Shown here: piece after piece, positions 34,659 through 45,585 of the stretch | Layout of the letters: each line of letters opens with the position of its first letter | Numbering within the stretch: the first letter of the stretch is position 1 | Assembly (NCBI GenBank): GCA_918298275.1 | Contig: CAKJZO010000087.1 | Location: 1-47,322 of the forward strand | Reading direction: 5' to 3' | DNA length: 47,322 nucleotides | DNA from: Spirochaetota bacterium | GTDB lineage: Bacteria > Spirochaetota > Spirochaetia > Sphaerochaetales > Sphaerochaetaceae | The notes under the pieces: model-generated | The model's input: the letters and a program-made list of their open reading frames with translations, nothing else | Told to the model about the DNA's origin: nothing | Databases searched by the model: none | Translations under genes and position numbers: made by a program

Positions 34659-35243
34659 TCAGGAATAGGTCTTGATAATCAGATCGGCAACTTCCTTCTT
34701 TGAGACACTGCTGTCCATTGCCTTCTTCTCTATGTATCGGTGAGCCTGGCTTTCATCCATGCCGAGTGCTGATATCAGAAGCCATTTGGCCCTGTTGACT
34801 ATTCGGATCTCCTTCATCTTTTCCTCAAGGGACAGGGTTTTCTTCTCAAGGTTCCTCAGTCTTTCACGGGTTGCGGTCATCCATTCAAGAGCGTTGGAAA
34901 GAGAATTCCGGGACAGCGGCTTCAAAAGAGTATAGACCCCGTGCATCAGGACATTTTCGGAGATTGTATCCTGCAGGTCCGGAGGCAGAAGCAGAAGAGA
35001 AACTGCACTCTTGGAAGAAACCACATCAATGGAGAATTCGACTCCGTTATCATCCCTGCAAGGAGAATTGATTATCACGAAATCATAACTCATGGCATTC
35101 CATTCACGTCTGGCAGCGCTGACACTTGAGACAAACCGAATCGGATAATAGCGGGATTCGGGCATAAGGGAAGACAGTGTGGCATGCAGGATCTCTCCCG
35201 CACATACAATGAGGACACTGTATTTCCTTTCTTCCAATTCCAT
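34659..35243 (-). CDS. ANTAR-domain RNA-binding antiterminator with pseudo-receiver
   Basis: 194 aa. Residues 8-120 fold like a response-regulator receiver but lack its chemistry: the acidic pair is Cys-Ala (VLIVCAGE), and the phosphoacceptor position is Asn (DFVIINSP); the conserved Lys is kept (TLLKPL). A coiled-coil linker (RLRNLEKKTLSLEEKM) leads to the C-terminal ANTAR domain, about residues 135-190 (RAKWLLISALGMDESQAHRYIEKKAMDSSVSKKEVADLII). ANTAR domains bind paired RNA hairpins with hexaloops and block terminators. Last gene of the glutamate synthase operon, 28 bases after glnA; a run of eight T follows its stop. It probably controls the two terminator-bearing leaders at 41.5-41.7 kb. 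Confidence 0.88.
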   Translation of the reverse strand: MELEERKYSVLIVCAGEILHATLSSLMPESRYYPIRFVSSVSAARREWNAMSYDFVIINSPCRDDNGVEFSIDVVSSKSAVSLLLLPPDLQDTISENVLMHGVYTLLKPLSRNSLSNALEWMTATRERLRNLEKKTLSLEEKMKEIRIVNRAKWLLISALGMDESQAHRYIEKKAMDSSVSKKEVADLIIKTYS

Positions 35244-35271: not shown

Positions 35272-36483
35272 TTACCTATTGCAGTAGATCGACAGGATTT
35301 CCGATGGGATGTGTTCTCTGATGAAGCTGCTGGATGCAGCAACCTTGCACGCTTCATTGAAGGAACCCGGAAGTTGCTCATAGGAGGAAAGCACATCACT
35401 TCCAGCAGTAAAGAGGTTGATATCCGAAGGGCTGCATAGCTGCAGGCGTTTTCCGATTCCGTCCAGACAGGCATGGATAACCAAAGCGAAGGCAAGGTAC
35501 GGATTGGCTGTCGGATCTGCCGAACGCAACTCTACCCTCCTGTATTCTCCTTCCGCAGCCGGTATCCTGACCAGCGGAGAACGGTTCTCGCAGGACCATG
35601 ACACATAACGAGGAGCCTTATGACTTCCCAGACGCTGATAGGAGACTTCGCTCGGATTCAGGAATGCCGTCATCGACCTTGCATTGGCAAGTATGCCTGC
35701 AATCATCTGCGACAATGTTTCCTCTTTGTCCAGCTGCTTTAACGAAATATTGATATGGAAGCCATTTCCGGGAGCATCTTGTATGGGTTTTGGTGAAAAA
35801 TCTGCGACCAAACCATTGTTATAGGCTACCGTTTTGACAACGCGCTGGAATGTCATGGCATTATCTGCAGCCGCCAGAGCACCGGAATATTTGAAATCGA
35901 TCTCATTCTGTCCGGGTCCCTGTTCGTGATGCGAACGCTCCGGAAGAATTCCCATACGTTCCAATGTAAGACAGATTTCTCGGCGAACATTCTCCCCTTT
36001 GTCCTCCGGTGCAATGTCCATGTATCCGGCCTCGTCAGACGGAATCCTGGTGGGCTTTCCGTTTTCGTCGCGCTGGAAGAGATAGAACTCCAGTTCCGAA
36101 CCGAAGTTGAACTCGTAACCCATCTTCTCGGCATCCGAGACGGCATTCTTGAGCAGCCGTCTGGTATCACAACCGAAGGGCGTCCCGTCCGAAAGAGTGA
36201 TGTCGGAGAACATCTGTACCACCCGACCGTGTTCCGGTCTCCAAGGCAGCGGCACAAGGGTATTCGGTTCCGGATGGAGAAGCAGATCGCTGCGTGCCTC
36301 ATCTCCGAATCCTGCGACTGCCGAAGCATCGAAGGATACTCCGTGTTCGAAAGCTCTCGGCAATTCATCAGCCATTATCGAGATGTTCTTCTGCTTTCCG
36401 AAAACATCACAGTAGGCGATACGGACGAACTTGACGTCCTCTTCTCTCGTGTATTGTATGACTTCATCTTTTGAATAGTTCAT
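35272..36483 (-). CDS. glnA: glutamine synthetase, type I (short form)
   Basis: 403 aa, shorter than the 440-470 aa of most GSI. Active-site motifs: GSELEFYLF, SHHEQGPGQNEIDF, GNGFHINISL, NRSPLVRIPA and RRVELRSADPTANPYLA. Makes glutamine from glutamate, ammonia and ATP. The start at 36483 has GAGGGTGG close upstream; the longer frame overlaps the previous gene. The adenylylation-site loop (Tyr near the C-terminus) is not clear to me. Sixth gene of the split glutamate synthase operon; a GSIII gene lies on the opposite arm. Confidence 0.93.
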   Translation of the reverse strand: MNYSKDEVIQYTREEDVKFVRIAYCDVFGKQKNISIMADELPRAFEHGVSFDASAVAGFGDEARSDLLLHPEPNTLVPLPWRPEHGRVVQMFSDITLSDGTPFGCDTRRLLKNAVSDAEKMGYEFNFGSELEFYLFQRDENGKPTRIPSDEAGYMDIAPEDKGENVRREICLTLERMGILPERSHHEQGPGQNEIDFKYSGALAAADNAMTFQRVVKTVAYNNGLVADFSPKPIQDAPGNGFHINISLKQLDKEETLSQMIAGILANARSMTAFLNPSEVSYQRLGSHKAPRYVSWSCENRSPLVRIPAAEGEYRRVELRSADPTANPYLAFALVIHACLDGIGKRLQLCSPSDINLFTAGSDVLSSYEQLPGSFNEACKVAASSSFIREHIPSEILSIYCNR

Positions 36484-36499
36484 TTCACCACCCTCTCTA

Positions 36500-37225
36500 T
36501 CAGTTCGCAACATACATTTGACGGTACGGATTTTCACTGTCAGGTGTAATCACCGTGAAGATACCTGATAGTATCTCTTTTAAATCCAGATTGAAAATAC
36601 TACAGTACTCCGAAAGTAACGATTCCAGCTCTTTCATATCTTCTTCAACGGCTGTATGAACCTTGACCTGACTGGGAAACACTACATCCCTGCAGTCCGA
36701 GCGCAGGAAAACCTTGCCGCCATGCATTCCCGTACACGGGAAGAATCCGACACACTTCTTTTGCGGTTCATCCAGGTTCAGAACCACGATGACTCCTCCG
36801 GCCTGATATTCTCCCAGGAAACTTCCGGCCCGCCCTCCGATTATCATGAGAGGAACTTTATCCTTGTATGCCTTCACATGAATACCCGCACGGTATCCCG
36901 CATTGCCGCGTACATAGATTTTCCCGCCCCGCATCGCATAGCCTGCTGCATCGCCGATATTGCCGTGAATCAGGATCGTACCGTCATTCATGGTATCTCC
37001 CACTGCATCCTGGGCGTTACCCATTACGGTGATTATGCCTCCATTGAAATATGAACCCAGGGCATTGCCCGGAATCCCTTCTATGGTAATGTTCTTGCCT
37101 GACATCCCGGAAGCGATGAACCTCTGGCCGCAACAACCGGTAATCAGGCAACTGTCACAGGCATTCCTGATCTGCTCATTGAGAGCCCTATGGTCTTTGT
37201 CCTGTGCTCTGATTACTACACTCAC
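36500..37225 (-). CDS. glutamate synthase GXGXG-domain subunit
   Basis: 241 aa standalone beta-helix domain that corresponds to the C-terminal part of GltB. Repeated glycine pattern is visible in GNALGSYFNGGIITVMGNAQDAVGDTMNDG, cited as the region of residues 53-82, then GNIGDAAGYAMRGGKIYVRGNAGYRAG and GGRAGSFLGEYQAGG. It has a structural role, scaffolding the FMN subunit. Overlaps the preceding reductase gene by four bases. Confidence 0.92.
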   Translation of the reverse strand: MSVVIRAQDKDHRALNEQIRNACDSCLITGCCGQRFIASGMSGKNITIEGIPGNALGSYFNGGIITVMGNAQDAVGDTMNDGTILIHGNIGDAAGYAMRGGKIYVRGNAGYRAGIHVKAYKDKVPLMIIGGRAGSFLGEYQAGGVIVVLNLDEPQKKCVGFFPCTGMHGGKVFLRSDCRDVVFPSQVKVHTAVEEDMKELESLLSEYCSIFNLDLKEILSGIFTVITPDSENPYRQMYVAN

Positions 37226-38454
37226 ACTGAACCTCCGAATTTGCTCCTGCGTATCTCTTTGGAAAACGCCGCTGTTGTCGCGACTTTCTTCAGAATCTCG
37301 AAATTCACTGACGAAAGCGGTATCCGTTCGCGGATCATTGAGGTATAGATCCCCGCCCTCTCGCCGCAGTTCACAAGCATGAATCCCTTAAGGCAGTTGT
37401 CCTTGATATACAGTCTCCTGACCGAGGTTTCTGTCTTCTCCTCATACAATTCCCCCTCATACGTCCCTGCTGTCATCACATGCAAGCCGAAAAAACCTAT
37501 GGAGTTCATCGGTATTGCCTTATCAAACACTTCCGAACCTCCGGCCATACCGATGCCGGCAGCATATCCCTGCATATATGCATTGGGCAGAATAGCCATC
37601 ACCTTCTTCTGACCGCTCGAAATATCCAGAGCCTCGGAACAATCCCCTGCGGCATAGATCCCATCCAACGAGGTCCTCATGTTTTCATCTACAATTATTC
37701 CTCTGTTCACAGCAGCTCCGATATCTCTGACAATTGCCGTGTTCGCCCTCACCCCGACAGCCAAAACCAGTACATCGAAGTCGACACTCTGCCCGCTTCG
37801 GAGAACAGCTTTATGACTTTCAAACCTGGAAACACTGTCATTGAGATGGAAAGTTATTCCATGCTTCTCCAGATGACTCTGAATCATTGCGGCACACTCA
37901 GTATCCAGAATGCTGGACAGAACGCGATCCGAAAGGTCACAGACGGTGACACTGCCGACCCTATTCACTATGCCCTCGGCACATTTGAGACCTATCAGCC
38001 CGGCTCCCACAATCAGGACCCTGCTATCCCCATCTATGACCTTTTCCAATCCGAGTGCATCATCCAAGGTCATGAAACCGAACTTTTTCTCGACCTTATC
38101 GAGTCCCTCGAACGGTGGAACGAACGGGTTCGAACCGGTAGCAACGCAGAGTGCCGTATACGGGAGCTCTGCCCCGTCATCCATCATCACGACTCTTTTT
38201 TCATTGTCGATACCGACAGCCCTGACTCCGTACAGAACACGACAGCACATCCGGTCATAGAAATCCCTGTCCCTATAACCGATGCGTTTTATGTCTGTTT
38301 TTCCCTCTAGGTAGTATGAAATAAGCGGCCGACAGTACACCGGATGCTTCTCGGCAGAGATCACTGTTATTCTTCCTTCTGAATCTAGACTTCTGATTCC
38401 TTCTATGCAACCGGCTGCTGCCACGCCGTTTCCGACAATCACATACTCTGCCAT
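37222..38454 (-). CDS. NAD(P)H/FAD oxidoreductase subunit of the glutamate synthase set
   Basis: 410 aa pyridine nucleotide-disulfide-type reductase: FAD motif YVIVGNGVAAAGCIEGIR, NAD motif VLIVGAGLIGLKCAEGI, GIYAAGDCSEA. It resembles the NirB/rubredoxin reductase branch rather than GltD. Within this operon it probably feeds electrons from NAD(P)H, through the Fe-S protein encoded just before it, to the FMN subunit. The start lies three bases after the Fe-S gene. Confidence 0.87.
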   Translation of the reverse strand: MAEYVIVGNGVAAAGCIEGIRSLDSEGRITVISAEKHPVYCRPLISYYLEGKTDIKRIGYRDRDFYDRMCCRVLYGVRAVGIDNEKRVVMMDDGAELPYTALCVATGSNPFVPPFEGLDKVEKKFGFMTLDDALGLEKVIDGDSRVLIVGAGLIGLKCAEGIVNRVGSVTVCDLSDRVLSSILDTECAAMIQSHLEKHGITFHLNDSVSRFESHKAVLRSGQSVDFDVLVLAVGVRANTAIVRDIGAAVNRGIIVDENMRTSLDGIYAAGDCSEALDISSGQKKVMAILPNAYMQGYAAGIGMAGGSEVFDKAIPMNSIGFFGLHVMTAGTYEGELYEEKTETSVRRLYIKDNCLKGFMLVNCGERAGIYTSMIRERIPLSSVNFEILKKVATTAAFSKEIRRSKFGGSV

Positions 38455-38457
38455 GAA

Positions 38458-38886
38458 TCACCTCTCTTCGTATACGATTGCCTTGTTGGGGCATCCTTTC
38501 ACACATGCAGGTTCACCGCATGAATTCTGAAGACAGAGTTCGCATTTCTGCATCACCCCGTCTTTATCCGGAGCAAGTGCCCCGAAAGGACAGACGAGAA
38601 CACAGGTATAGCATCCGACACATCTATCCCTGTCTATCCTGATTACACCGTTCTCCCGGGACAGGGCTCCCGCAATACAACTCTTGACGCAAATCGGATC
38701 CTCGCAGTGACGGCAGGAAACTGCGTAGGAAATCCTGTCGGTTCCTTCGATGTGTATGCGGGGATAGATGGGTTTCCCCTTCAGGGCATAAGCCATGTCC
38801 GATAGCCCGGAGTTGGCAAATGCGCAGTTATACTCGCACAGATGACAGCCCAAACACCATTGTTCATCCACATATATTCTCTTCAT
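38458..38886 (-). CDS. polyferredoxin-type 4Fe-4S electron carrier
   Basis: 142 aa with at least three to four Cys clusters: CLGCHLCEYNC, CRHCEDPICVKSC, CVGCYTCVLVCPFG and CELCLQNSCGEPACVKGCP. This is the layout of HycB/CooF-like electron-transfer subunits. Located between the FMN subunit and the FAD reductase of the split glutamate synthase, so it probably bridges the two. It starts four bases after the preceding stop. Confidence 0.9.
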   Translation of the reverse strand: MKRIYVDEQWCLGCHLCEYNCAFANSGLSDMAYALKGKPIYPRIHIEGTDRISYAVSCRHCEDPICVKSCIAGALSRENGVIRIDRDRCVGCYTCVLVCPFGALAPDKDGVMQKCELCLQNSCGEPACVKGCPNKAIVYEER

Positions 38887-38890
38887 ATGC

Positions 38891-40396
38891 TCATGCTCCT
38901 GCGTGTGAAATACCCAGAATCTGGAGTTCTTTCTCGGTCAGTCCTATACCTCTGAGCATCAGACGGTTGCCCCTCAGAGCTTCTATGGAGTTGATTCCCA
39001 TTCCGCCCATCAGCTCCTTGATTTCATGGTTCCATGCGGTCATCAGATTCACGAGACGCTCACTTCCGATATCCGGATTCAAACGCTTAACCAACTCCGG
39101 ATTCTGAGTGGCGATTCCCCAGTTGCACTTTCCTGTCTGGCATGTCCTGCACAGATGACAACCCAAGGCCAGAAGTGCAGCAGTGGCTATATAGCATGCA
39201 TCTGCACCGAGAGCCACAGCTTTTACCACATCTGCCGCACTTCGGATGGACCCGCCTGCAACAAGTGAGACGTTGTTGCGTATTCCCTCGTCACGCAGTC
39301 TCTGATCCACAGCCGCCAGGGCAAGCTCTATGGGAATACCTACATGATCCCTGATTCTCGTCGGAGCTGCACCGGTGCCGCCCCTGAATCCGTCGATGGC
39401 TATGATGTCGGCACCGCTTCTGGCTATGCCGCTTGCAATTGCCGCAATGTTGTGTACTGCGGCAACCTTTACTATCACGGGTTTTTCGTACTTCGTGGCT
39501 TCCTTCAGGGAGAAGACCAGCTGTCTCAGGTCCTCGATGGAATAGATGTCATGATGCGGGGCCGGTGAAATAGCATCGGAGCCTTCCGGAATCATCCTGG
39601 TTCTGGAAATATCTCCGACTATCTTCATTCCCGGCAGATGCCCGCCGATACCGGGTTTGGCACCCTGCCCCATCTTGATTTCTATGGCCGCTCCGGCCTC
39701 CAGATAGTCCTCATGCACTCCGAAACGACCGCTTGCGACCTGCACTATCGTGTTGGCACCGTACTGATAGAAATCTTCATGAAGACCTCCCTCTCCTGTG
39801 TTGTACAGGATTCCCAATCGGCTTGCGGCTCTTGCAAGTGAAGCATGTGCGTTGTAACTGATGGAACCGTAACTCATTGCGGAAAACATCACAGGCATGG
39901 AAAGCTCTATCTGGGGAGGAATATCGCAGATGATCTTTCCATCTCCGTCCCTACTGATCTTTTCCGGTTTCTTTCCCAGCGTCACCCGGGTTTCCATCGG
40001 CTCTCGGAGAGGATCTATAGGCGGATTCGTAACCTGTGAAGCATTGATGAGGATTCTGTCCCAGTAGACCGGAAGCGGCTTCGGATTTCCCATGGATGAG
40101 AGCAGAACACCGCCGCTTGATGCCTGCTTGTATATCTCCTTGATCGTGTCATTCTGCCAGTTTGCGTTCTCTCTGAGCACACAGTCGCTCTTGACTATTT
40201 TCAGAGCTCTGGTAGGACACAGCGATACGCATCTCTGACAGTCTACGCACTTTCTCTCGTCACTCATCATAATCCCGCGCTCGGGACTGTAGTGGTGGAC
40301 CTCGTTTGCACATTGGCGCTCACATACACGACAGGTGATGCATCTGGCCTCGTTGCGGATTACTTCGAATTCAGGATAGATGAAATCAACCGTCAT
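38891..40396 (-). CDS. gltB: glutamate synthase FMN-binding (central) subunit with N-terminal ferredoxin domain
   Basis: 501 aa archaeal-type glutamate synthase core. Residues 15-65 hold two 4Fe-4S motifs (CITCRVCERQCANE, CVDCQRCVSLCP). The remainder is the FMN barrel: GEGGLHEDFYQYGANTIVQVASGRFGV, cited as the area near residue 200, IEIKMGQGAKPGIGGHLPG, SAPHH-type loop ISPAPHHDIYSIEDL, and CHLCRTCQTGKCNWGIATQ with the 3Fe-4S cysteines. Makes two glutamates from 2-oxoglutarate with ammonia delivered from the glutaminase subunit. Its ATG overlaps the stop of the glutaminase gene. Confidence 0.95.
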   Translation of the reverse strand: MTVDFIYPEFEVIRNEARCITCRVCERQCANEVHHYSPERGIMMSDERKCVDCQRCVSLCPTRALKIVKSDCVLRENANWQNDTIKEIYKQASSGGVLLSSMGNPKPLPVYWDRILINASQVTNPPIDPLREPMETRVTLGKKPEKISRDGDGKIICDIPPQIELSMPVMFSAMSYGSISYNAHASLARAASRLGILYNTGEGGLHEDFYQYGANTIVQVASGRFGVHEDYLEAGAAIEIKMGQGAKPGIGGHLPGMKIVGDISRTRMIPEGSDAISPAPHHDIYSIEDLRQLVFSLKEATKYEKPVIVKVAAVHNIAAIASGIARSGADIIAIDGFRGGTGAAPTRIRDHVGIPIELALAAVDQRLRDEGIRNNVSLVAGGSIRSAADVVKAVALGADACYIATAALLALGCHLCRTCQTGKCNWGIATQNPELVKRLNPDIGSERLVNLMTAWNHEIKELMGGMGINSIEALRGNRLMLRGIGLTEKELQILGISHAGA

Positions 40397-41490
40397 TACT
40401 CCACCCCCTTGTTTACCCTGACAACTACAGGCTCTCCGCCTCTGGGGGCCCAGATGTTCTCTGCATCAGGTTCCATCGTACGTATGGCAGCTTCCTCGCT
40501 GGCAATGAATACCCTGTCATCCTTCTCACCGACCACCATGGACCTGAGTTTCAGACGATCGTTCAAAGCCATAAGTCCGCCATCGAAACCAAGGATTATA
40601 GAGAAAGGCCCGGTTATCAGAAGACTCGGAAATACTGTTCTGAGAAAAGCGTGCCTCTTGCTGAGTTCCCGATCTTTCTCACCTGCAATGGTGCTCCAGA
40701 ACGGTGCGGCTATGACGTTTGCGGCCTCTTCCAGAGTCAGGCCCTGCCTGCGGACCAGGTAGTCCAGGATATAGGTAATCACTTCGGTATCGGTCTGCAG
40801 CGTACATTTGTAACCGAACATTTCTATGAATCTGCGGTTGGCATCATAGGAGGAGATTTCACCGTTGTGGACAACCGAATAATCCAGAAGCGTAAACGGA
40901 TGTGCCCCACCCCACCAGCCCGGTGTATTGGTCGGATATCTTCCATGGGCAGTCCAGCTGTAGCCTTCATATTCCTCCAGTCTGTAGAATTCGCCTACGT
41001 CTTCCGGAAAACCGACGGCTTTGAAGGTGCCCATGTTCTTTCCGCTGGAAAAAACATAAGCCCCGCTGATGCTGGAGTTGATCTTCATTACCGCGCGGGC
41101 TACGAATTCCTTCTCATCCAGCTGCAGATTTGCCAGCATCGACTTGAGCGGATCCAGGAAATAGCGCCATATGATCGGTTCGTCAGTAATCTCCGGAATC
41201 TTGCGTGTAGGGATGATTTCGGATTTGACTATCTCGAAATACTCTTTGAGGAATACTTCGCATTCCTTCTGAGTGGATCTGTCATCGAAGAAGACATGCA
41301 GAGCATAGTACTCTTTCATATCCGGATAGATTCCGTATCCGGAAAAACCACCGCCGAGACCATTGCTTCTGTCGTGCATCGGTTTCATGGAATTGACTAT
41401 CATCCCGCCCGACATGGTCCGGCCTTCCCTTGAGATGACTGCGGAAATGGCGCAGCCTGAAGGTATGCGTATCTGTCCTTCCTTTTCCAT
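40396..41490 (-). CDS. glutamate synthase class II glutaminase subunit
   Basis: 364 aa. N-terminal nucleophile-type glutaminase: Cys13 in PSGCAISAVIS, then NGLGGGFSGYGIYP, AHGRYPTNTPGW, HNGEISSYDANRR and LQTDTEVITYILD. It corresponds to the amidotransferase domain of GltB encoded as its own gene and hydrolyses glutamine. First gene of the seven-gene operon. Start chosen at 41490 (AGAGG seven bases upstream); the frame extends to 41580, but that stretch forms the leader terminator, so it is not coding. Confidence 0.9.
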   Translation of the reverse strand: MEKEGQIRIPSGCAISAVISREGRTMSGGMIVNSMKPMHDRSNGLGGGFSGYGIYPDMKEYYALHVFFDDRSTQKECEVFLKEYFEIVKSEIIPTRKIPEITDEPIIWRYFLDPLKSMLANLQLDEKEFVARAVMKINSSISGAYVFSSGKNMGTFKAVGFPEDVGEFYRLEEYEGYSWTAHGRYPTNTPGWWGGAHPFTLLDYSVVHNGEISSYDANRRFIEMFGYKCTLQTDTEVITYILDYLVRRQGLTLEEAANVIAAPFWSTIAGEKDRELSKRHAFLRTVFPSLLITGPFSIILGFDGGLMALNDRLKLRSMVVGEKDDRVFIASEEAAIRTMEPDAENIWAPRGGEPVVVRVNKGVE

Positions 41491-41514
41491 TCGCCTCTTC
41501 TCCTTCAGAGAAAT

Positions 41515-41581
41515 AAAAAAAGCAAAGGCGCTCATTGGCATACGGAATCTATCCATATGTGAATGAACGCCTTTGCTCATT
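41515..41581 (-). promoter_or_regulatory. ANTAR-type attenuator leader of the glutamate synthase operon
   Basis: Minus strand. Hairpin 1: AATGAGC (41575-41581) and GTTCATT (41562-41568) pair over seven bases (one G-U) around the hexaloop AAAGGC, A at 1 and G at 4. Hairpin 2: 41539-41559, stem CATATGG/CCGTATG with loop beginning ATAG. Terminator: 16-base arms (41562-41577 and 41521-41536) with one G-U, then six T residues (41515-41520). The loop and 3' arm of hairpin 1 are the 5' arm of the terminator, so the two structures exclude each other. Target of the ANTAR protein by inference. Confidence 0.7.
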
Positions 41582-41588
41582 TTTAGCT

Positions 41589-41618
41589 GTTATACCCCAA
41601 GGCTTTGCGAAATGTCAA
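41589..41618 (-). promoter_or_regulatory. promoter of the split glutamate synthase operon
   Basis: Minus strand TTGACA (41613-41618), 18-base spacer, TATAAC (41589-41594). The transcript would begin near 41582, exactly at the first base of hairpin 1. Confidence 0.7.
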
Positions 41619-41634
41619 GGAAGTGGCATAGCAG

Positions 41635-41664
41635 TTGACATCATCGGCGTTGTTGGTCTATAGT
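41635..41664 (+). promoter_or_regulatory. promoter of glnN-amtB
   Basis: Perfect TTGACA (41635-41640), 18-base spacer, TATAGT (41659-41664). Start expected near 41671, a few bases before the leader hairpin. The two divergent promoters lie back to back with their -35 boxes 16 bases apart. Confidence 0.7.
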
Positions 41665-41674
41665 CATCGCAAAT

Positions 41675-41720
41675 GAAGGCAAAGGCGTCTTCGGGTTTCA
41701 TACCCGGGGACGCCTTTTTT
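41675..41720 (+). promoter_or_regulatory. ANTAR-type attenuator leader of glnN-amtB
   Basis: Hairpin 1: GAAGGC (41675-41680) and GTCTTC (41687-41692), six pairs with one G-U around hexaloop AAAGGC (41681-41686). Hairpin 2: CGGGT/ACCCG (41692-41706). Terminator: AAAGGCGTC (41681-41689) with GACGCCTTT (41709-41717), then T-run to 41720. The loop and 3' arm of hairpin 1 again form the terminator 5' arm. Same hexaloop as the opposite leader, otherwise different stems. Confidence 0.7.
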
Positions 41721-41751
41721 CGTATCACTGACCGATGCAAGGAGTTTTGAA

Positions 41752-43848
41752 ATGAAGACGGTATCAGATTATTTCGGAAGTATGGTGTTTGACGATCGTG
41801 CGATGAGAGCCTCTCTATCAGCAGATGTTTATGCATCTCTGCGCAAGACCATCGATGAAGGAAGTGCATTGGACATCAGTGTTGCGAATGCCGTTGCAGA
41901 AGCCATGAAGAACTGGGCGGTTTCGAAAGGTGCCACCCACTTCACCCACTGGTTCCAGCCACTGACGGGAATCACGGCGGAAAAACATGAAGCATTCATA
42001 AGCCCTTCTCCGGACGGCAGTGTCATCATGGAGTTTTCAGGCAAGGAACTGATCAAAGGTGAACCGGATGCCTCTTCATTCCCCTCAGGAGGTCTGAGGG
42101 CTACATTCGAGGCCCGTGGCTATACTGCATGGGATCCGACCTCATATGCATTCATGAAGGGCAAGACCCTGTGTATCCCCACGGCGTTCTGTTCCTACGG
42201 AGGACCGGCTCTGGACAAGAAAACACCGCTGCTGAGATCTATGGAGGTTCTCAGCAAACAGGCCCTGAGGATTCTCAGACTATTCGGAAACAACACTGCA
42301 AAACGGGTCATTTCATCTGTTGGGCCGGAGCAGGAATACTTCCTGATAACACGCGAGATGTATGAGAAACGCCCTGACCTGCGTTTCTCCGGCAGAACGC
42401 TCTTCGGAGCAAAGCCGCCGAAGGGACAGGAACTCGACGATCACTACTTCGGAGTCATCAAACCCAGCGTGTCAGCCTTCATGGAAGACCTGAACGACGA
42501 ACTCTGGAAACTTGGGATCCTGGCAAAGACAGAGCATAACGAAGTAGCTCCGGCACAGCATGAGCTCGCCCCGATCTACACTACAACCAATATCGCAACC
42601 GACCACAACCAGCTGACTATGGAGATGATGCAGAAAGTGGCTGCCAGACACGGCCTTGTATGCCTGCTTCACGAGAAACCCTTTGCCGGTGTCAATGGAA
42701 GCGGAAAGCATAACAACTGGTCGATTGCAACCGACAGCGGGCAGAATCTCCTCTCCCCCGGAGATACTCCGTATGAGAACGCACAGTTCCTGATTTTCCT
42801 GTGCGCCGTCATCAAAGCCGTAGATGATTATCAGGATCTGCTGCGCATATCCGTAGCAACAGCAGGCAACGACCATCGTCTGGGAGCAAATGAGGCTCCT
42901 CCTGCAGTCATCTCAATCTTCCTCGGTGATGAACTGAATGCGGTACTGGAAGCCATAGAATCCGATACCCCATACAAGGGAACCAAGAAAAAAGTGATGC
43001 GTCTGGGCGCAGAGGTTCTGCCCAAGTTCAACAGGGACACCACGGACCGCAACAGGACGAGCCCGTTCGCATACACCGGAAACAAGTTCGAGTTCCGCAT
43101 GCTCGGTTCCTCCAACAGCATCGCCTGCACCAACATCATGCTCAACAGTGCTGTCGCAGAGAGCCTCAGAGTCATTGCCGACAGTCTTGAGAAGGCAAAG
43201 GATTTCGAAAGCGAGCTCCATGACCTCATCAGGGATACCATCCGCAATCACAAGAGAATCATCTTCAACGGAAACGGCTATGACGATGCATGGATAGAGG
43301 AAGCCACGAAAAAACGCGGACTGCTGAACTATAAGACAACTGCAGACTGCATGCCGCATCTTCTGGACAAGAAGAATGTGACGATGCTTACATCCCTCGG
43401 TGTTTTCACTGACGAGGAACTGCGTTCCAGACGTGACATCATGCTTGAGAACTACTGCAAGAGCGTGGTAATAGAGGCCCGCACCATGATCAGCATGGCA
43501 AGAACCATGATTGCCCCTGCAGTTGAGGAATACGCCGCCTATGTAGCCGGTGCCGCAAACGCAAAGAAATCACTTTCCTCCGACATCGCCTGCACCTATG
43601 AGAAGAATCTTGTCAGAAAGCTTTCAGGTCTGCTTGACGAGATCTGCACCAAGACCGATGCCCTTGAGGCAGTGCTTCCGCTTCTGCAGGATGCAAAGGA
43701 TATAGTTGAAGAATCGGCAGTGGTTCGTGACAGACTTCTTCCGGCCATGGATGAGCTGCGAATCCCATGTGATGAAGCAGAAGTCCTTACGGACAAGAAG
43801 TACTGGCCGTTCCCGACCTATTCGGATCTCCTGTTTGGTGTGAAATGA
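41752..43848 (+). CDS. glnN: glutamine synthetase type III (GlnN)
   Basis: 698 aa, the size of the large GSIII family. Family regions: THFTHWFQPLTGITAEKHEAF at residues 63-83, FSGKELIKGEPDASSFPSGGLRATFEARGYTAWDP (residues 97-131, cited by position), GPEQEYFLI, AKTEHNEVAPAQHELAPIY, LLHEKPFAGVNGSGKHNNWS, cited as residues around 300-325, and NRTSPFAYTGNKFEFR. Makes glutamine from ammonia. Ribosome-binding site AAGGAG is seven bases upstream. With the AmtB-PII fusion it forms the divergent arm. Having both GSI and GSIII suggests use under different ammonia levels. Confidence 0.95.
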   Translation: MKTVSDYFGSMVFDDRAMRASLSADVYASLRKTIDEGSALDISVANAVAEAMKNWAVSKGATHFTHWFQPLTGITAEKHEAFISPSPDGSVIMEFSGKELIKGEPDASSFPSGGLRATFEARGYTAWDPTSYAFMKGKTLCIPTAFCSYGGPALDKKTPLLRSMEVLSKQALRILRLFGNNTAKRVISSVGPEQEYFLITREMYEKRPDLRFSGRTLFGAKPPKGQELDDHYFGVIKPSVSAFMEDLNDELWKLGILAKTEHNEVAPAQHELAPIYTTTNIATDHNQLTMEMMQKVAARHGLVCLLHEKPFAGVNGSGKHNNWSIATDSGQNLLSPGDTPYENAQFLIFLCAVIKAVDDYQDLLRISVATAGNDHRLGANEAPPAVISIFLGDELNAVLEAIESDTPYKGTKKKVMRLGAEVLPKFNRDTTDRNRTSPFAYTGNKFEFRMLGSSNSIACTNIMLNSAVAESLRVIADSLEKAKDFESELHDLIRDTIRNHKRIIFNGNGYDDAWIEEATKKRGLLNYKTTADCMPHLLDKKNVTMLTSLGVFTDEELRSRRDIMLENYCKSVVIEARTMISMARTMIAPAVEEYAAYVAGAANAKKSLSSDIACTYEKNLVRKLSGLLDEICTKTDALEAVLPLLQDAKDIVEESAVVRDRLLPAMDELRIPCDEAEVLTDKKYWPFPTYSDLLFGVK

Positions 43849-43866: not shown

Positions 43867-45585
43867 ATGACTGTTGAATTCTGGTTTTTGATCGGTGCCG
43901 CACTGGTCTTTTGGATGCAGGCAGGCTTTGCAATGGTGGAGACAGGATTCACCCGTGCGAAGAACGCCGGAAACATCATCATGAAGAACCTGATGGACTT
44001 CTGCATAGGCACAGTTGTGTTCATGCTGCTAGGTTATCCTCTGATGATGGGTGAGGACATGCTCTATGGACTTATAGGAAAACCTAATCTGAACCTGTTC
44101 ACACATTTCAAGGAATTCATAGCCTCCCCTTCGGAAGGCTTCACAGATGCAAGCTACTTTGTATTCAATCTTGTGTTCTGCGCGACGACGGCGACAATCG
44201 TCTCCGGTGCAATGGCTGAAAGGACAAAGCTCTCGGCCTACTGCGTGTACTCCGGAGTGATAAGCATGCTCATCTACCCGATTGAAGCCCACTGGATATG
44301 GGGCGGCGGCTGGTTGGCACAGCTTGGTTTCCATGACTATGCCGGATCCTGTGCCATCCATATGGTGGGCGGGATAGCAGCCTTGATTGGAGCTATCACC
44401 CTTGGCCCGAGAATCGGCAAATACGTCAGGAACAGAGATGGCAAGGTCACGAAGGTCAACGCCATCCCCGGGCATTCGATCCCGCTTGGAGCACTTGGGG
44501 TGTTCATCCTCTGGCTGGGCTGGTACGGATTCAACGGAGCTGCGGCGACCACCCCGTCCGAGTTGTCCTCAATCTTCCTTGCAACGACCGTTGCACCTGC
44601 AGTGGCAACCTGCACCACCATGGTCTACACCTGGATAAGGAACGGCAAACCTGACGTCTCAATGTGCCTCAATGCGGCACTTGCAGGTCTGGTTGCAGTC
44701 ACCGCAGGCTGTGATGCCTTCGATGCAATCGGAGCTTCAGTTGTGGGAATAGTTGCTGGGATACTGGTTGTGGAAGTCGTTGAGAAGCTGGATCTGAAGC
44801 TTCACATAGACGATCCCGTCGGTGCCGTGGGCGTCCATTGTGCAAACGGAATCTGGGGAACCATAGCCGTGGGACTTCTTGCAAACCCGAACGCACCTGC
44901 AGGCCTCAAGGGTCTGCTGTACACGGGCGACTTCAAGCAGTTCGGCATACAGATGCTGGGGTTAGTGGCTGTTGCAGCCTGGGCAACGGTGACAATGCTG
45001 ATCTTCTTCAGGATTCTGAGGAAGGCGAAGTTCCTCCGTGCAGATGCTGCAGATGAGCTCACGGGTCTGGACATTACAGAGCATGGACTTCCAAGCGCCT
45101 ATGCAGACTTCATGCCTGCAGTTGACAAGTATGCGGAGTTCGGCACTGGAGACCAGATTGTGGCGGTCACGGGGACAACCCCTGTTGCGGAGGCGGTTCC
45201 AGTCAAACGGGAGCCATCCTTCGACGGACACAAGTTCACCAAGGTGGAGATTGTGTTCAGGGAGGAGAAGCTCTACGCCCTCAAGGATGCAATGTCAAAG
45301 CTCGGCATCACCGGCATGACTGTGTCACATGTGATGGGCTATGGAATGCAGAAGGGCCATGTCGAGTTCTACCGTGGTGTCGCAGTCGAGACGGACCTAA
45401 GGCCAAAGGTGCAGGTTGACATAGTCGTATCCGCAATCCCGGTAAGAGATGTTGTGGAGACGGCAAAGAAGGTCCTCTACACAGGACATATCGGAGACGG
45501 CAAAATCTTCGTCTACGATGTCGAGAACGTGATCAAGGTCAGAACTGGAGAAGAAGGCTATGATGCCCTCCAGGACGTTGAATAG
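43867..45585 (+). CDS. amtB: ammonium transporter fused to a C-terminal PII domain
   Basis: 572 aa. Residues 1 to about 405 form the 11-helix ammonium channel: GFTRAKNAGNIIMKN, twin-His pore residues in AIHMVGG and VGVHCANGIWGT, GGGWLA. After a linker (residues 410-460) a complete PII domain follows: KVEIVFREEKLYALKDAM, T-loop GYGMQKGHVEFYRGV with the Tyr of the uridylylation site, LRPKVQVDIVV, B-loop TGHIGDGKIFVYDVE. In most bacteria GlnK is separate and plugs the channel when nitrogen is plentiful; here it is tethered. Ribosome-binding site GGAGGAG. 18 bases after glnN. Confidence 0.95.
   Translation: MTVEFWFLIGAALVFWMQAGFAMVETGFTRAKNAGNIIMKNLMDFCIGTVVFMLLGYPLMMGEDMLYGLIGKPNLNLFTHFKEFIASPSEGFTDASYFVFNLVFCATTATIVSGAMAERTKLSAYCVYSGVISMLIYPIEAHWIWGGGWLAQLGFHDYAGSCAIHMVGGIAALIGAITLGPRIGKYVRNRDGKVTKVNAIPGHSIPLGALGVFILWLGWYGFNGAAATTPSELSSIFLATTVAPAVATCTTMVYTWIRNGKPDVSMCLNAALAGLVAVTAGCDAFDAIGASVVGIVAGILVVEVVEKLDLKLHIDDPVGAVGVHCANGIWGTIAVGLLANPNAPAGLKGLLYTGDFKQFGIQMLGLVAVAAWATVTMLIFFRILRKAKFLRADAADELTGLDITEHGLPSAYADFMPAVDKYAEFGTGDQIVAVTGTTPVAEAVPVKREPSFDGHKFTKVEIVFREEKLYALKDAMSKLGITGMTVSHVMGYGMQKGHVEFYRGVAVETDLRPKVQVDIVVSAIPVRDVVETAKKVLYTGHIGDGKIFVYDVENVIKVRTGEEGYDALQDVE

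Follow-up and report, generated by a model that had tools for sequence, protein, structure and literature searches.

Single-hexaloop leaders on both arms of a divergent nitrogen-assimilation locus in Spirochaetota are predicted targets of an ANTAR antiterminator

Two divergent nitrogen-assimilation operons in a 47,322-nucleotide stretch of a Spirochaetota genome (the window) each begin with a leader in which a small hairpin, with A at position 1 and G at position 4 of a six-base loop (A1/G4), overlaps an intrinsic terminator. On the comparative evidence set out below, we hold with considerable confidence that ANTAR antitermination through a single hexaloop controls both arms of the locus. RNA polymerase would start a few nucleotides before the A1/G4 hairpin; by default, the downstream strand would capture the loop and 3′ arm into a stabler terminator, and transcription would stop. 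An active ANTAR protein would bind the hexaloop, keep the small hairpin and prevent the terminator, allowing readthrough into the split glutamate synthase–GSI–ANTAR genes on the minus strand and the GSIII–Amt-PII genes on the plus strand. One of the two switches precedes the ANTAR gene itself, so the protein would exert positive feedback on its own expression.

The intergenic region (41491-41751) divides the two operons. By Pfam, the minus-strand operon starts with the glutamine amidotransferase (GATase_2) part of a split glutamate synthase (40396..41490), followed by its synthase domain with a ferredoxin-like N-terminus (38891..40396), a 4Fe-4S protein (38458..38886), an NAD(P)H/FAD oxidoreductase (Pyr_redox_2; 37222..38454), the GXGXG part of the synthase (36500..37225) and, by both Pfam and NCBIfam, a type I glutamine synthetase (GSI; 35272..36537). 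The ANTAR gene comes last (34659..35243, minus strand). On the plus strand, a type III glutamine synthetase (GSIII; 41752..43848) precedes an ammonium transporter with a fused C-terminal PII domain (Amt-PII; 43867..45585). An earlier sequence-only reading of this DNA had named split glutamate synthase, GSI, GSIII and AmtB-PII as the coordinated genes, and had placed an ANTAR gene at the end of the minus operon; the Pfam matches, PF03861 among them, agree on each count. The asparagine synthase gene 3′ of the ANTAR gene has no such leader, as judged by a covariance-model and sequence check of the window. A similar ammonium transporter–PII fusion lies behind the same type of leader on a Christensenellaceae contig (L120).

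Both arms have predicted σ70-like promoters: TTGACA-18-TATAAC for the glutamate synthase/GSI/ANTAR operon (41589..41618, minus strand), the hairpin spacing of which recurs in relatives, and TTGACA-18-TATAGT for the GSIII/Amt-PII operon (41635..41664, plus strand), recognized from sequence. The hairpins begin 7 nt (minus) and 10 nt (plus) after the end of the −10 element. Folding, covariation and a covariance-model match identify the minus antiterminator hairpin, AATGAGC [AAAGGC] GTTCATT (41562..41581; stem 41581-41575, loop 41574-41569, 3′ arm 41568-41562); folding and a model match identify the plus hairpin, GAAGGC [AAAGGC] GTCTTC (41675..41692; stem 41675-41680, loop 41681-41686, 3′ arm 41687-41692). 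These AAAGGC hairpins, opening both divergent leaders, had been placed correctly to the base by the sequence-only reading, and they score 38.2 bits (minus) and 40.1 bits (plus) against our covariance model R1.

The minus terminator (41515..41578, from folding and covariation) has a 17-bp stem (41578-41562 with 41536-41520) and an apical 8-bp hairpin with a pentaloop, followed by a U-tract; the plus terminator (41681..41720, from folding) has a 16-bp stem (41681-41717) and a U-tract. Each is mutually exclusive with the antiterminator hairpin of its leader, and folding energies uphold the earlier observation that in both leaders the hexaloop and 3′ arm double as the 5′ arm of the terminator. Folded alone, the hexaloop hairpins reach −5.9 (minus) and −7.0 (plus) kcal/mol; with downstream sequence included, terminators of −39.4 kcal/mol (z −8.9) and −29.7 kcal/mol (z −7.1), respectively, incorporate them. 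As the terminators are far stabler than the small hairpins, unaided termination should win. The sequence-only reading had described a double-hairpin motif whose second ANTAR hairpin lies in the terminator loop. One A1/G4 hexaloop per leader stands, and small hairpins do exist in the terminator loops, but they carry pentaloops (UAGAU and UUCAU) without A1/G4 and so are not second A1/G4 hexaloops; we dropped them as ANTAR sites. Among relatives, the shape of the terminator apex is highly diverse.

Both competing helices covary in the 50 aligned leaders, drawn from Spirochaetota and Clostridia, on which the covariance model was built. The antiterminator stem shows two-sided changes in four of five pairs, with a covariation of 0.779 compared with 0.314 after shuffling and no more than 0.199 in slid controls; the terminator stem shows them in 7 of 12 pairs (0.637, compared with 0.267 shuffled). 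Paired cells amount to 94.8% and 97.0%, respectively, percentages that are partly built in because the scanner that supplied the aligned leaders demanded a stem of at least 4 pairs and a terminator; the evidence free of this bias is the unbiased folding of leaders described below, together with the variety of pair types. One 3′ arm serves both helices, the same bases retaining two mutually exclusive partners, and both states of the switch are, by this comparison of sequences, under selection. That the switch architecture is real seems to us near certain. A covariance search of relatives, which the sequence-only reading had proposed as a check on itself, thus finds recurring sites in which both alternative helices covary. 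Were these elements operators in the DNA, or ordinary terminators lying between two divergent promoters, their similar loops being incidental, covariation between the two arms of the small hairpin would be needless. AAAGGCG/CGCCTTT does form inverted repeats at the DNA level, and the terminators would function without any protein; the spacing of the repeat arms, however, varies widely, and the loop is fixed at positions 1 and 4, with variation at position 3 and in the stems. We give such a reading almost no credence.

The loop itself was assessed with a procedure blind to it. For glutamate synthase genes across the taxonomic family of the window, the best terminator of each leader was picked ignoring loops, and the surroundings of its 5′ arm were then folded. 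A six-base loop emerged in 53 of 62 distinct glutamate-synthase leaders, with A1 in 51/53 and G4 in 52/53 of these hexaloops, whereas loop position 3 and the stems varied; the conserved loop on unrelated stems seen between the two arms of the window is therefore found in its relatives too. Over 0.96 Mb of related loci, 134 hexaloop hairpins of the A1/G4 class overlap terminators, whereas the other 15 classes have 4–22 each, although A1/G4 makes up only 6.9% of all hexaloop hairpins in the same sequence. A1/G4 hexaloops at terminators are not due to chance. In the genome of the window, the covariance model finds the two window sites and no others, and an exact-pattern search returns one extra, unrelated match that lacks a hairpin. 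Viral contigs queried with the plus-leader sequence gave no match.

The metabolic nature of the regulated genes would also suit a metabolite-sensing leader (riboswitch) or a leader-peptide attenuator, and an ATG at 41580 allows an in-frame reading of the minus leader. A search of the window against Rfam, at gathering and relaxed thresholds, returned no family above threshold and implausible sub-threshold matches only, and the element is smaller than known aptamers. Stems such as GGAC/GTCC, GAAC/GTTC and CAGC/GCTG in other leaders have no ATG, and we therefore dropped a peptide from ATG 41580. A riboswitch or leader peptide is, in our estimation, extremely improbable.

The candidate binder is the 194-amino-acid product of the ANTAR gene, in which PF03861 and the predicted fold delineate a pseudo-receiver, a coiled coil and an ANTAR domain. 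The domain scores 53.9 bits (curated cut-off, 27.3). Its start is very probably the ATG at 35243; a longer frame from a TTG at 35495 overlaps the glutamine synthetase gene and is unlikely. Sequence matches among solved structures are Rv1626, EutV and AmiR, and the AlphaFold model (pLDDT 92.5, pTM 0.73) has RNA-bound EutV (6ww6) as its top match by TM-score (0.75). In the alignment, the residues at EutV K149, E160 and M172 are retained in 76/76 proteins (one gap); the position of EutV Tyr164 is always His, as in AmiR, and that of Arg142, which contacts G4 in EutV, is mostly Ile and otherwise another residue. We are strongly inclined to believe that the ANTAR protein is what binds the hexaloop.

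A real protein-controlled antiterminator with some other RNA-binding protein, the ANTAR protein being merely a neighbour, would accommodate the genomes that have a site or an ANTAR gene alone. The A1/G4 hexaloop is, however, the known ANTAR signature (PMC3369931), and the ANTAR-like fold and residues, together with co-occurrence inside and outside the family, also speak against another binder, to which we accord a low probability. The phospho-Asp position is Asn in 61/77 aligned proteins, the window protein included, which departs from the two-component pattern; a partner or ligand, and not a classical kinase, is therefore the probable sensor. PII or glutamine synthetase would be our guess, and we infer nitrogen status as the signal from the identities of the genes.

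Judged by the ANTAR gene, the closest genome to that of the window belongs to a Spirochaetales bacterium from the rumen of roe deer. The genome of the window itself has a second, weak ANTAR-like match in a 335-codon frame (L002, G000:C49). The closest relatives outside the spirochaetes, with up to 55% identity, are on Clostridia contigs (L095-L098), where near-identical hairpins (TGAGC-AAAGGC-GTTCA) adjoin the ANTAR gene; similarity of this kind suggests that the whole cassette has been transferred between gut Clostridia and spirochaetes.

Sites and ANTAR genes occur together well beyond the window. Within the family, an ANTAR gene is present in 72/76 site-positive genomes (site at E ≤ 1e-4) compared with 14/63 site-negative ones (Fisher p ~7e-20, treating genomes as independent and leaving kinship uncorrected). 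Across 268 genomes from the rest of the phylum, again treated as independent, the corresponding figures are 25/27 and 14/241. This co-occurrence, in family and phylum, lends support to the earlier proposal that one regulator is shared by both arms. In four family genomes a site is present and the ANTAR gene undetected, and three of the four are <90% complete; a further 14 are ANTAR-positive without a strong model match, and scanning by hand finds sites in at least two of them (G008 and G015). The genus of the window (11 genomes) comprises five genomes with both elements, five with neither and one (G133) with only a weak ANTAR-like match. In the genomes with neither element, the GSIII genes that remain are a different paralogue, 56–59% identical.

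The mirror arrangement, which the sequence-only reading had highlighted, is not peculiar to this locus: attenuators do lie on both arms in the window, and they do so within 900 nt at 36/70 glutamate synthase loci of relatives. That reading had also specified what would count against it, namely related genomes that keep the genes and lose the loops. Such loss was found only locally, in five genomes of a single genus (L040-L044) that lack the attenuator on the glutamate synthase arm; ANTAR is present in all except one, in which the gene was not found, and the GSIII-arm attenuator is still detected in L040, L041 and L044.

The one-hexaloop leader recurs across Spirochaetota and gut Clostridia. 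Elsewhere it precedes GSI, GSIII, glutamate synthase, ammonium transporter and asparagine-synthase-like genes, and it is also found before the genes for CTP synthase (pyrG), the small subunit of carbamoyl-phosphate synthase (carA), glutamate dehydrogenase (gdh) and NAD synthase, as well as purA, purB, purC and dapF, these downstream genes having been identified partly by eye from N-termini and partly by Pfam. The pyrG, carA, pur, gdh, NAD synthase and dapF leaders come from Treponema-like genomes and Clostridia (L213-L226 and L095-L139). The predicted regulon thus consists mostly of genes that produce or consume glutamine and ammonia.

The well-studied targets of ANTAR antitermination all have two hexaloops (PMC3369931, PMC8934654), and the leaders could be canonical dual-hairpin targets if transcription truly began at a more distant upstream site and a first hexaloop (P1) had thereby escaped notice. 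Promoter positions argue otherwise. Promoter-like sequences (≥9/12 matches) lie directly 5′ of the hairpin in 104/128 distinct attenuators compared with 32/640 random positions, and the median distance from the predicted start to the stem is 4 nt, with <14 nt between start and hairpin in 102/104 promoter-bearing leaders. Upstream A1/G4 candidates within 100 nt are found in 16/128 leaders compared with 8/116 in a control stretch, several of the 16 being tandem attenuators; neither arm of the window yielded an upstream A1/G4 hairpin when one was sought. A P1-like hairpin ~51–57 nt upstream does occur in one genus (L058, L060 and L153), the only one that looks dual; its arrangement is possibly an intermediate between single- and dual-hairpin designs. 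Given the promoter spacing and the control counts, we dropped an upstream P1 for most leaders and consider an overlooked first hexaloop very improbable. Tandem copies of the complete single-loop attenuator, ~61–80 nt apart, are seen in L036, L037, L038, L095, L096 and L098, on the arm that in most cases leads into GSIII.

The window and most relatives thus have one hexaloop per terminator and not the tandem pair of canonical targets, with which they share the A1/G4 hexaloop, the overlap of hairpin and terminator, and an ANTAR protein in the genome. By the two-hairpin test the leaders are not canonical, and yet they appear to work like canonical targets. We think it likely that one hexaloop per switch suffices. 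Somewhat better than even, in our judgement, is the case for a distinct ANTAR class, defined by a 5′-terminal single hexaloop sufficient without a recruitment hairpin, a pseudo-receiver subfamily with the motif AH[RK]YIEKKAMD, occurrence in Spirochaetota and Clostridia, and a global glutamine/ammonia regulon. Several points count against single-hexaloop ANTAR antitermination at this locus: the G4-contacting Arg142 of EutV is unmatched (Ile or another residue), the published antitermination by EutV needs two hexaloops, and in some genomes a site or an ANTAR gene occurs without the other.

What is known of EutV makes this difference consequential. Its targets have two hexaloops 5–12 nt apart, both required for antitermination (PMC3369931, PMC8934654); single hexaloops bind alone, and in the proposed model the first recruits the protein in the brief time before the terminator forms (PMC8934654). 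The authors of that study assigned any single sites to settings free of the time limit that a moving polymerase imposes, and noted that the role of single hexaloop motifs calls for more analysis (PMC8934654). The leaders described here sit exactly under that constraint. With many natural one-loop cases in two phyla, the need for a recruitment hairpin becomes directly testable. Published covariance searches demanded two hairpins (PMC3369931, PMC8164766), an actinobacterial search allowing a linker of 2–25 nt between them, and single-loop leaders would have been passed over; the predicted regulon is invisible to such models. The leaders also point to a means by which many bacteria of the gut and rumen may control ammonia assimilation.

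In the open literature, to which our search was confined, we found no earlier account of single-loop ANTAR attenuators or of spirochaete ANTAR RNAs; subscription papers may hold a precedent, for example on NitR of Clostridium saccharobutylicum. In the NitR/glnA–gltAB cluster of that species, an ANTAR-type regulator reportedly neighbours the genes for glutamine synthetase and glutamate synthase, and the leaders are structured. In Desulfotomaculum and elsewhere, ANTAR leaders have been predicted upstream of the genes for glutamate synthase, glutamine synthetase, PII and ammonium transporters (PMC3369931), and they resemble those of the window in their nitrogen targets and in regulons that extend over several operons. 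ANTAR attenuation of nitrogen genes is thus already known; what appears to be different here is the single hexaloop.

AmiR of Pseudomonas aeruginosa is like the window protein in combining a pseudo-receiver with ANTAR and in carrying a His where EutV has Tyr164. It differs in being held by AmiC, for which no similar partner was identified here, and in acting on a dual-hairpin leader (PMC3369931, PMC8934654). EutV/EutW of Enterococcus faecalis provides the closest parallel for the RNA, with an A1/G4 hexaloop on a short stem and a loop and 3′ arm that compete with a terminator, and EutV has the same order of receiver, coiled coil and ANTAR, its RNA-bound structure 6ww6 giving the best TM match. 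Whereas EutV is phosphorylated by EutW, the Asn at the phospho-Asp position of the window protein argues against a classical kinase; and whereas the EutV targets have two hexaloops, the leaders here have a single one, located at the very start of the predicted transcript.
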